Part shown: in pieces, positions 2,934 to 48,342 of the stretch | Layout of the letters: every line of letters begins with the position of its first letter | Position numbering within the stretch: position 1 is the first letter of the stretch | Assembly: GCA_003278305.1 (NCBI GenBank) | Contig: QCFU01000008.1 | Location: 1 to 64,000, forward strand | Reading direction: 5' to 3' | Source of the DNA: Prochlorococcus sp. AG-363-M21 | GTDB taxonomy: Bacteria > Cyanobacteriota > Cyanobacteriia > PCC-6307 > Cyanobiaceae | DNA length: 64,000 nucleotides | The notes under the pieces: generated by a model | Told to the model about the DNA's origin: nothing | The model's database searches: none | Seen by the model: only the letters and a program-made list of their open reading frames with translations | Position numbers and translations under genes: made by a program

Positions 2934-3223
2934 CGAAAATCAATTCAGATGATGTGCGCAAAGTCTCAAAGTTGGCACGGTTGGAATTACCAGAAGAGGT
3001 TATTGAAACTTATACAGATCAACTTGAAAAAATCTTGGAATATGTTGCACAATTAGAAAAGATAGATACAAATAATGTGCCTCCTACTACAAGAGCAGTA
3101 GAGGTTGTTAATGTCTTAAGAGAAGACAATATTGAACCAACAAATATAAGAGAGGAATTAATTGACTTGGCTCCAATTAGGGAAGGTGATTTCTTTAGAG
3201 TACCTAAGATATTATCTGATTAA
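2930..3223 (+). CDS. gatC: Asp-tRNA(Asn)/Glu-tRNA(Gln) amidotransferase subunit C
   Basis: The small subunit of GatCAB, which converts Glu-tRNA(Gln) (and in some bacteria Asp-tRNA(Asn)) to the amidated form used in translation. The 97-residue length and the segments [40 protein letters not shown] and [10 protein letters not shown] are typical of the family. GatC has no catalytic centre; it stabilises GatA and GatB, which are not in this window. It overlaps the upstream creatininase-family gene by ATGA. Its stop shares a palindromic TTAA with the stop of convergent crtR. Confidence 0.95.
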
Positions 3224-4308
3224 TTATTATCTCTGTCAGGGATAAGAGCTGTAGTATGTAATAGATTAATCCATTTTCTTCTTAACCTTTTACTAGGTAA
3301 TAACTTTGCAAAAGGTCTCATCTTGCTTCTATTTTTTTTATGACTTCTGATTCCTAAAATTACATCATAAAGAAAATTTAGTCCATCAGCTTTTGTTTCG
3401 AAAATACCCATTCGTTGTGGTGAACCTTTTTGATCTAATAATGGCTTTGTTGCTTCATATGCGGGTTTGTACTCAAACCACGGAATAGATGGCCACAAAT
3501 GATGAATAAGATGATAATTTTGGCCCATAATTAATATATTCATAACTTTACTTGGGTAAACCCTTGCATTTTTCCATTTGTTTCTTGCCAGGAAAGGACG
3601 ATGAGGGAGATAGTCAAAAAATATTCCTAGAGTTACCCCAACCATTAACGCAGGCCCAAACCAAAGGTTATAAATTACATTCATGAAATTGAATTTAATC
3701 CCAGCAAGAATGATGGTTAAGAATAATGATCGCTCGAGCCCCCACTGCATTAGTTCATACTTGCGCCATAATTTTCTTTCAAAGAAAAAATATTCATGAT
3801 AGAAAAATCTAGGGGCGATCAACCAGACAGGACCAAAAGTGCTCACTATATGATCAGGGTCATTTTTGGGGTCATTCACATGTGAGTGGTGTTGAAGATG
3901 GACTCTTGTGAAAACTGGAAAACTAAAACCCAATAGTATTGCTGCACCGTGACCCATTAATTGGTTTACCCATTTATTAGGATGAGCTGCCTTATGGCAT
4001 GCATCATGAATTACGGTTCCTTCCATATGTAGTGCGAGAAAAGCTATGCCCACTAGTAGAGGCAAGTAGAAGTGACCAAGTTTTATTGAAAGCCAATCTT
4101 GATACCAAGCCCAGACGGCTGTTCCTGCAAGAAGATATCCTCCTAAGAAGAGCCAAACAGTTGGATTCAAAATGCCAGGCGGGTCTAGATATTCTTTTAT
4201 AACTTTTTGCCAATAGTTGAATGAATGAAACTTCTTTGAGAAGTTGGGCTCGTCAAGCATCTGTATGCTGTCACTTATTAGATTTTGGTTCTGTTGCAAG
4301 TTGGCCAA
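3220..4308 (-). CDS. crtR: Beta-carotene hydroxylase (CrtR type)
   Basis: Hydroxylates beta-rings of carotenes, giving zeaxanthin in picocyanobacteria; a membrane di-iron enzyme of the fatty-acid desaturase superfamily. Three histidine clusters are visible: HDACHKAAH at about residues 101-109, HLQHHSH at about 137-143, and a C-terminal HLIHHLWP. Hydrophobic stretches near residues 50-68 and 80-95 fit membrane helices. The length of 362 residues is a little longer than the family norm, with a basic C-terminal tail. It is convergent with gatC and overlaps it by four bases. The 5' end faces the tRNA-Leu gene. Confidence 0.93.
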
Positions 4309-4333: not shown

Positions 4334-4415
4334 TGCCCACCGGGAGACTTGAACTCCCACGACCGAAGTCACTGGTACCTAAAACCAGCGCGTCTACCAA
4401 TTCCGCCAGATGGGC
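4334..4415 (-). tRNA. tRNA-Leu (anticodon UAG)
   Basis: The reverse strand folds as a class II tRNA of 82 bases. The 5' acceptor arm GCCCATC pairs with GGTGGGC, followed by discriminator A. The anticodon stem CTGGT/ACCAG encloses the loop TTTAGGT, giving anticodon UAG. A variable arm and the T-arm GGGAG-TTCAAGT-CTCCC follow. No CCA is encoded. Part of this gene is repeated in decayed form about 135 bases away at 4515-4560. Confidence 0.95.
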
Positions 4416-4514
4416 TAATCGATTTCAGCAATTAAGCTTGGAATCTTTCAAGATTTTATCAGTTTAAAAGGCAATTTTTTAGCTTGGTTAGACACTCTGA
4501 ATTTAAACTTTTAG

Positions 4515-4560
4515 CTAAAACCAGATCGCCTACCAATTCTGTGAGGTGAGTCAATCGATC
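4515..4560 (-). repeat. Decayed partial copy of the tRNA-Leu 5' half
   Basis: This segment aligns without gaps to 4379-4424, the 5' half of tRNA-Leu(UAG) plus about eight bases of its upstream flank. By eye 35 of the first 45 positions match, including a perfect CTAAAACCAG block from the anticodon loop region and CTACCAATTC from the D-arm. The copy lacks the 3' half, cannot fold as a tRNA, and has mutations in the acceptor strand. The rest of the gap, 4425-4756, shows no credible ORF, repeat or terminator. Confidence 0.8.
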
Positions 4561-4756
4561 TCTAGTTTTGAGACTTGCTTTTTCCTGCTAGAAGACTATG
4601 AAAAAAGATGTTTATTTAAAAGCCAGAGTCTAGATTTTGTTGTTACATGATTTGTTTTTACTAACATTCCATATATTTTTGTGGTAAAAAAATCTTGGCT
4701 TTGATTTTTAAGATGTTTTGTCCAAGCTAAAAATAATCAAGCTTATTGTATAAGAC

Positions 4757-5299
4757 ATGATTGTATCTTCTATTGGATATCTCTATGAAATTCTTGGGCT
4801 AATTCTCTTGTCCCTCCCTTTGTTCTTTCAAGAGATAAGTCGACCTAGGGACTCTCTTTGGGGCTCTTTGATACTTGTTTTTGGATTGATATTGATTTTT
4901 GATTACGATCGTTTTTTTGGAGCTCCAAAATATGCTGTGATTTTAGGAACAGTAATTTTTATAAGGCTATTATTTGAAATTTGCCAATATAGATGGCAAA
5001 TGTTAACTGATGAAGAAAAGATAACTCTCAAATCCATTAAGAGATTTTTTAGCAGTTTTCAACAATCGTCGGCTGCTTTTGCAAAATTGGGAGCATTTTT
5101 TTTAGAATTACTTAAAATCCTTAGACCTAAACCAAAAGATAAAAATAAAAAATGGATTCGTCCTGATAATACTGACAAAGAGAATCCGTTAAAGAATGAA
5201 GTTTTAAACTCTCATCATGAAAAAGAATCTTTGGAATTTACCAGTCCAGATAAGAATTCATCACTAAGACAGGTAAATGGAGCCTCTGAGGATTCATAA
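4757..5299 (+). CDS. ycf66: Ycf66-like membrane protein
   Basis: A 180-residue protein with an N-terminal membrane region (three hydrophobic segments at about residues 7-24, 34-48 and 58-75) and a charged, low-complexity, probably disordered C-terminus rich in Lys, Asp and Ser. The N-terminal arrangement with a short loop containing SRPRD between the first two helices resembles the Ycf66 N-terminal domain of cyanobacteria and some plastids. Function unknown. It precedes ileS by about 20 bases on the same strand and may be cotranscribed. The family assignment comes from pattern memory and is moderate. Confidence 0.65.
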   Translation: MIVSSIGYLYEILGLILLSLPLFFQEISRPRDSLWGSLILVFGLILIFDYDRFFGAPKYAVILGTVIFIRLLFEICQYRWQMLTDEEKITLKSIKRFFSSFQQSSAAFAKLGAFFLELLKILRPKPKDKNKKWIRPDNTDKENPLKNEVLNSHHEKESLEFTSPDKNSSLRQVNGASEDS

Positions 5300-47715: not shown

Positions 47716-48342
47716 ATGAGTAGAACTGAATCTACAATGCTTCCTTTAGGAACTTTATTACCTTCGTTTGATTTGCCTATTGTTAATAGACCAAACTTAC
47801 TAGGAGGAAACGAATCGAATGACTGTGCTTTTGAGAAACTTACAGATAAAAATTTTATTAAGAGACCTTTGCTAATAATGATCATTTGTGCACATTGCCC
47901 CTTTGTGAAGCATATTGAGTTGGAAATTACGAGACTTCACAAGGGATATGGTGAAAATGTTGATTTTCTTGCTGTTTCATGTAATAGCCTTTTAACTCAT
48001 CCTCAAGATGGACCTGACCACCTCAGAAGACAGGCTGAATTAAATGGTTGGTTGTTCCCTTATCTTTTTGACTATGAACAAGAGTTCACAAAATTATTAA
48101 AAGCTTCTTGTACCCCTGATTTCTTCTTATTTACTCCCTTGTTGGATTGTAAACAGAAGTTGTTTTATAGAGGTCAGCTTGATAGCAGTAGGCCTGGGAA
48201 TGATATTCCACTCACCGGTAATGACCTTCGGATTGCAATGGATGCAGTTTTACAAAAGAGGAATATTTATTTTGAACAAAAACCTTCTATTGGATGCAAT
48301 ATAAAGTGGCATCCTGGAAATGAGCCTAATTGGTTTGATTGA
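47716..48342 (+). CDS. Thioredoxin-fold redoxin (AhpC/TSA-like)
   Basis: A 208-residue protein with a peroxiredoxin/thioredoxin-like core. IICAHCPFVKHIE near residue 55 holds a CxxC motif (CAHC), followed by FLAVSCNSLLTHPQDGPDHLRRQA and CTPDFFLFTP. This fits the thioredoxin-family proteins with a CxxCPFVKH signature. It probably acts on peroxides or disulfides; its specific partner is unknown. It diverges from fabI. Confidence 0.82.
   Translation: MSRTESTMLPLGTLLPSFDLPIVNRPNLLGGNESNDCAFEKLTDKNFIKRPLLIMIICAHCPFVKHIELEITRLHKGYGENVDFLAVSCNSLLTHPQDGPDHLRRQAELNGWLFPYLFDYEQEFTKLLKASCTPDFFLFTPLLDCKQKLFYRGQLDSSRPGNDIPLTGNDLRIAMDAVLQKRNIYFEQKPSIGCNIKWHPGNEPNWFD

Follow-up and report, generated by a model that had tools for sequence, protein, structure and literature searches.

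The window, by which we mean the whole 64,000-nucleotide stretch of Prochlorococcus sp. AG-363-M21 DNA analyzed here, carries a tRNA-Leu(UAG) gene between a desaturase gene and ycf66, the divergent neighbor that served as a landmark (Table 1). The distance between ycf66 and the tRNA is 341 bp, and no genes except short mechanical ORFs were found in this interval. A second, decayed copy of the beginning of the tRNA is placed 136 bp upstream of the intact gene and has the same orientation. It comprises tRNA positions 1–37 (4515–4551) and the adjoining upstream flank (4552–4560).

Table 1. Features of the tRNA-Leu(UAG) locus in the window
Feature	Position	Strand	Basis
Desaturase gene (crtR of the earlier note)	3220–4308		Pfam FA_desaturase
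Intact tRNA-Leu(UAG)	4334–4415	-	ARAGORN; Rfam tRNA, 51.9 bits
Flank of intact tRNA, phage attP type (GCTTAATTGCTGAAATCGATTA)	4416–4437	-	16/22 to phage L112
Putative 99-bp scar, resembling phage int-attP left arm	4416–4514	-	Pairwise score 55 to L066
Extended -10-like box TGATAAAAT, 37 nt upstream of tRNA	4453–4461	-	Presumed promoter role
Displaced, decayed tRNA 5' half (tRNA positions 1–37, ending in anticodon)	4515–4551	-	Repeat with flank, 35/46
Flank of displaced half, phage attP type (TCTCAAAACTAGAGATCGATTG)	4552–4573	-	17/22 to phage L066
ycf66	4757–5299	+	Pfam Ycf66_N

The half-copy is real and not a product of chance. The segment 4515–4560 is identical to 4379–4424 at 35 of 46 positions; the last position is mismatched, hence the count of 35 over the first 45 positions given in an earlier note on this DNA also holds. 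The best other copies of 4379–4424 in the 64 kb have 24 matches (same strand) and 26 matches (opposite strand), and the best of 5,000 first-order shuffles of 4425–4757 reached 27/46. Compared without gaps to the consensus half, the displaced half has 29 identical positions of 38 and lies 205 bp from the ycf66 start. In a local comparison the repeat breaks off in the anticodon, and no 3' half of the tRNA follows the fragment.

This half of the gene is a known target. The T7-like cyanophages P-SSP7 and S-TIP37 integrate into tRNA-Leu, and their attP is the first half of tRNA-Leu (PMC8776855). In P-SSP7 the 5' half is located downstream of int without a 3' half, and its anticodon is read as that of the UAA isoacceptor. 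The past integration proposed by the earlier note is thus supported. The note was also right that the copy is a 5' half with its upstream flank; its remark that this is unlike a classical attachment site does not apply to T7-like cyanophages, whose attP is the first half of tRNA-Leu.

A scan of viral contigs (IMG/VR) for the Leu(UAG) 5' half yielded 72 stretches. Close to the match, ARAGORN predicted a tRNA in 30 of them and none in the other 42; a P-SSP7-like integrase was detected (tblastn, E 0.01) in 40/42 of the tRNA-less stretches vs 0/30 of those bearing a tRNA. Several phages have the same attP half (GCCCATCTGG...), and in many phages with a Leu(UAG) half, flanks such as CAATCGCTGAGATCCCTTG precede it. 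Flanks of the phage kind also adjoin the 5' end of the intact tRNA in many hosts and in the window. The strict flank plus half pattern (at most 3 mismatches) occurs in 26 of 400 family genomes and in 14 of 59 genera, with 0 hits for the reversed control; this count covers the strict flank pattern alone. The library used for arm comparisons had 19 phage arms; L100 and L123 were excluded because they carry other tRNA sequences, as were stretches that were short or nearly identical. It should be mentioned that the tRNA 5' half recurs left of attP, inverted and imperfect, in the arms of L066, L089, L129 and L065 (AACCAGTGTGTCTACCA in L066; 0–4 of 500 shuffles as good); at that level the copy was not significant in the other 15 of the 19 arms or in P-SSP7.

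The published accounts on which we drew describe intact prophages of the T7-like cyanophage group as absent from cyanobacterial genomes. We found one integrated phage in the family genome G336. Its contig C12 (52,265 bp) contains a T7-like phage of ~45.5 kb, at about 2,570–48,124, between the displaced and rebuilt halves of tRNA-Leu(CAG). The nine phage proteins scanned fall into integrase, RNA polymerase, terminase, internal virion, tail, head assembly, head-tail adaptor, DNA polymerase and primase/helicase families. One end of the phage has int, then the phage flank, then an intact tRNA-Leu(CAG) (2526–2610) with one extra base absent from the displaced half. At the other end, near 48,124, murA and a region with the host promoter come before the tRNA 5' half; the empty site, with murA, a similar region and an intact tRNA, is present in all five siblings. 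The murA side alone of the phage junction is confirmed by the siblings. On the far side, none of the five sibling loci aligns to the 2.5 kb that follow the tRNA, and the fasciclin-like gene located there was found in one sibling of five (G169), ~52 kb from its tRNA. This side is therefore not syntenic with the siblings, and a rearrangement or a chimeric contig is possible.

The phage flank (AGGCAGGGGCTTGAGATC) recurs in G336 as an exact 18-bp copy ~240 bp past the rebuilt tRNA (L191:2270–2287), and this copy may be a second remnant on the far side. A second integrase of this genome is on contig C48 (one tRNA scan and one sequence scan). Integrase matches in G035, G180, G263, G048 and G260 were set aside, as no linked tRNA-Leu was present in the stretches examined.

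In the window, the sequence that adjoins the 5' end of the intact tRNA resembles a phage int-attP arm, a likeness that we regard as moderate. None of 3,000 shuffles was as good as the score of 55 between the 99 bp and the L066 arm, and 8 of 3,000 were so after removal of the last 14 bp; the best of the 1,292 other 99-mers of the window scored 53, barely below. With a hidden Markov model (HMM) of six phage arms, the 99 bp ranked next after the tRNA, at E 0.052; without the flank E was 0.29. With a model of six g11 host arms, the window arm was the top match at E 0.53. The first profile search, which pooled all phage spacer types, was weak (E 5.7e-5 in G066 and 7.3 in the window).

The flanks of both copies are of the phage type. 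The match of the displaced half to the L066 flank was equaled by 2 of 127,956 22-mers of the window and by 1 of 20,000 letter shuffles, and that of the intact tRNA to the L112 flank by eight window 22-mers; the latter flank differs from the phage flank pattern at 3 positions at most. Candidate -10-like boxes at comparable distances are seen in phages L066 (38 nt), L089 (39 nt), L112 (37 nt) and L129 (39 nt); other phage types differ. Since the flank of the fragment is itself phage-like, the displaced half is probably phage-derived too, which would imply two rounds; the event recorded in the window was probably at least the second integration at this locus. After the displaced half no phage right arm is recognizable in the window (46 of 100 shuffles as good). 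The window may be classed as an integration scar whose right arm was perhaps lost by deletion, a class assignment made by analogy with relatives.

The earlier note also considered tandem duplication and later decay; in this reading the 5' half would have been copied along with the flank upstream of it, and no phage would have taken part. The arrangement itself would suit this: 136 bp separate the copies, which form a direct repeat with similar short flanks. However, a duplicated unit of 136 bp predicts likeness of the whole upstream region, and such likeness is absent: comparison of the 99 bp between the copies with the sequence upstream of the fragment stayed at shuffle level (z 0.49; 158 of 500 shuffles as good). 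Besides, these 99 bp resemble a phage arm, and fresh cases in relatives hold phage arms. We consider duplication improbable.

The interval between the tRNA and ycf66 was compared in 121 family genomes, which are not independent of each other. Of these 120 were tested, one having been dropped for a too short upstream stretch. G033, G074 and G319, in which the pattern found no tRNA, were dropped before the counts, and G276 (no match) and G247 (too near the contig end) are also outside the sample. The interval is 52–95 bp long in 29 genomes (17 genera), which carry another flank, and longer than 100 bp in 67 genomes (19 genera); ycf66 is missing from the stretch in the remaining 24. Similarity to phage arms at the 1-in-100 level was observed in 1/29, 28/67 and 3/24 genomes, respectively, and 8 of the 67 genomes with long intervals, the window's included, have a significant displaced half.

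This distribution bears on the possibility that phages captured host flanks, so that a shared arm would say nothing about integration into hosts. Shared flanks alone give no direction, and the window-specific statistics are modest. Yet the short-interval genomes, with their other flank, come out at 1/29 on the arm test, and the closest arm matches in genus g56 accompany enlarged intervals, with displaced halves in four of six. Flank capture is therefore very improbable.

In g56 the interval is 200–203 bp with an intact tRNA in 26 of the 34 genomes tested, 211 and 215 bp in two and 428–1,217 bp in six. In four of these six, displaced halves are found 201–203 bp from ycf66, where the siblings keep the tRNA; none was detectable in the other two, G399 and G414. 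No other genus is as clear. In G305 the halves are 233 bp apart, and the right and left arms that lie between them match phage L112 at 31/46 positions and at 114 of 132 aligned bases, respectively. The right arm of G312 matches L089 (105/119), and left arms match L064 in G187 (86/114) and in G414 (77/108) and L112 in G323 (76/102). Matches to L112, L089 and L064 point to at least three phage types in g56.

Besides the window's genome, a displaced half was found in eight family genomes (G066, G014, G027, G085, G187, G305, G312 and G323). Those of G066 and G027 lie at 50 and 54 bp, near the tRNA position of native-type genomes. The sequence after the displaced half is similar to phage right arms in G066, G085, G305, G312 and G323 (0 of 100 shuffles as good in each) and not phage-like in G014 (70 of 100); the left arm is not phage-like in G085 (88 of 100) or G027 (65 of 100). 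A candidate half in G259 passed the shuffle test with a score of 11 over 18 columns (cut-off 13) and was taken as chance.

Two further peculiarities of this gene were observed. The acceptor stem and 3' half of tRNA-Leu(UAG) in G085 (L011/L219) and G027 (L019) (GCGGATG...CATCCGCA) are unlike those of other genomes, as if the whole tRNA gene had been exchanged. In 12 genomes of genus g17 (L220–L231) the flank of tRNA-Leu(UAG) is AT-rich, of neither native nor phage type, and the anticodon arm differs (CGCGAGTTTTAGG).

The earlier note had named absence of the fragment from every relative as evidence against its proposal. The fragment is undetected in the genus mates G001 and G002, yet displaced halves are present in the eight other family genomes. 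The intact tRNAs of the two genus mates are 207 bp (G001) and 203 bp (G002) from ycf66, vs 205 bp for the fragment; as their intervals do not align to that of the window (z <1.8), these distances are at most consistent with displacement.

Instead of a T7-like phage, a different integrative element might have left the scar, such as a tycheposon or a small satellite with the same integrase type. Some scars hold an ORF without any phage match, as in G187, and the whole phage is known only from G336, at a different tRNA-Leu. Against this, the arms of G187, G305, G312, G323 and G414 match attP arms located beside P-SSP7-like integrases, and the interval in the window contains neither cargo nor integrase. 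We regard such an element as quite unlikely. As to the ORF of the G187 scar (L213:665–1024), it encodes 119 aa, and a related but broken ORF occupies this locus in G414 (L259). Among 17 genomes searched it was found only in these two, and comparison with PHROGs, phage records and viral contigs gave no match.

The island or transposable element suggested by the earlier note is not supported for the window, where ycf66 and the tRNA are only 341 bp apart and no integrase of the type searched for was found in its genome (~70% complete). A tycheposon at the locus was rejected, as no cargo gene lies between the tRNA and ycf66 and no tyrosine recombinase of the type searched for was found. An intact T7-like prophage was rejected as well: the copies are separated by 99 bp only, with no phage genes or integrase between the halves, and the P-SSP7-like integrase had no match in the window's genome, which is ~70% complete.

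Thus, the fragment is very probably the old 5' half of tRNA-Leu(UAG), displaced by integration of a T7-like cyanophage that was then almost entirely lost. This explanation is built on the phage attPs, one integrated phage, the scars of several relatives and the arm-like sequence in the window, all of which were observed directly. The products of integration are seen in G336 and G305, and relatives give a clearer picture of the process than the copy in the window, which is old and weathered. The phage attP carries the first half of the tRNA, preceded by an arm with a promoter-like box. The tyrosine integrase would cross over at the anticodon-loop end of the 5' half, cutting away the existing promoter and 5' half towards the ycf66 side; phage arm and phage 5' half would then be joined to the host 3' half, so rebuilding the gene. 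In the window, 4334–4378 would accordingly represent the 3' half of the old host gene and 4379–4415 a 5' half contributed by the last integrating phage. Nearly the whole phage would later have been lost, leaving the displaced half, free to decay, and ~99 bp of left arm, which probably persisted because the promoter of the tRNA now lies in it. From the sequences compared we infer the promoter function, the deletion step, selection to keep the arm and the number of rounds.

More tentatively, and with a likelihood a little below even, it can be proposed that lytic T7-like phages repeatedly and heritably took over an essential host tRNA gene, fixed events swapping its promoter and first half for viral DNA, and that the scars record cells escaping infection. 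A working lytic prophage kills its host, so only integrations without lytic genes would survive, and the scars would then be records of escape. If true, this would explain why short scars are common and intact prophages almost never seen. Together with the one integrated phage with both halves, the scars make stable integration of lytic phages testable from genomes. The scars suggest, moreover, that in some lineages viral promoters drive a core tRNA gene of an abundant phytoplankter.

Integration of T7-like cyanophages at tRNA-Leu and the occurrence of 5' fragments as a minority among tDNA islands are already known. In the literature covered, which left most subscription journals and bioRxiv records outside, no paper reported, by title or abstract, 5'-half scars that are inherited, a replaced promoter or a cyanobacterial genome carrying an integrated T7-like phage. 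The closest systems are P-SSP7 and S-TIP37, which share with our case the P-SSP7-type tyrosine integrase and the rebuilding of the tRNA on integration. Their integration is described as transient, without formation of stable lysogens (PMC8776855), whereas the scars found here are inherited; P-SSP7, moreover, carries the half of another tRNA-Leu. The MIT9313 pseudo-tRNA-Met near a putative P-SS2 site is comparable in having partial tRNA copies by a putative cyanophage site, but concerns a siphovirus and another tRNA, with degraded transposases nearby (PMC2784084). Prochlorococcus tycheposons are likewise associated with tRNAs in the same bacterial group; they are cargo-bearing islands with their own recombinase, and the window interval has neither (PMC10872708). 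In tRNA-dependent lysogeny a phage also enters a host tRNA and phage DNA takes over part of the supply, but in that system the phage supplies a complete tRNA, with no rebuilding of the one it enters, while here it would bring the first half and probably a promoter (PMC10865867). Finally, the tDNA islands of Islander resemble the window in combining an intact tRNA with a displaced fragment of the same orientation, a 5' fragment lying upstream; among 3,919 islands the fragment is 5' in 159 and 3' in 3,760. Islander demands an integrase and at least 2 kb, so a finder of this type filters out scars of the window's size and would miss them (PMC4383910).
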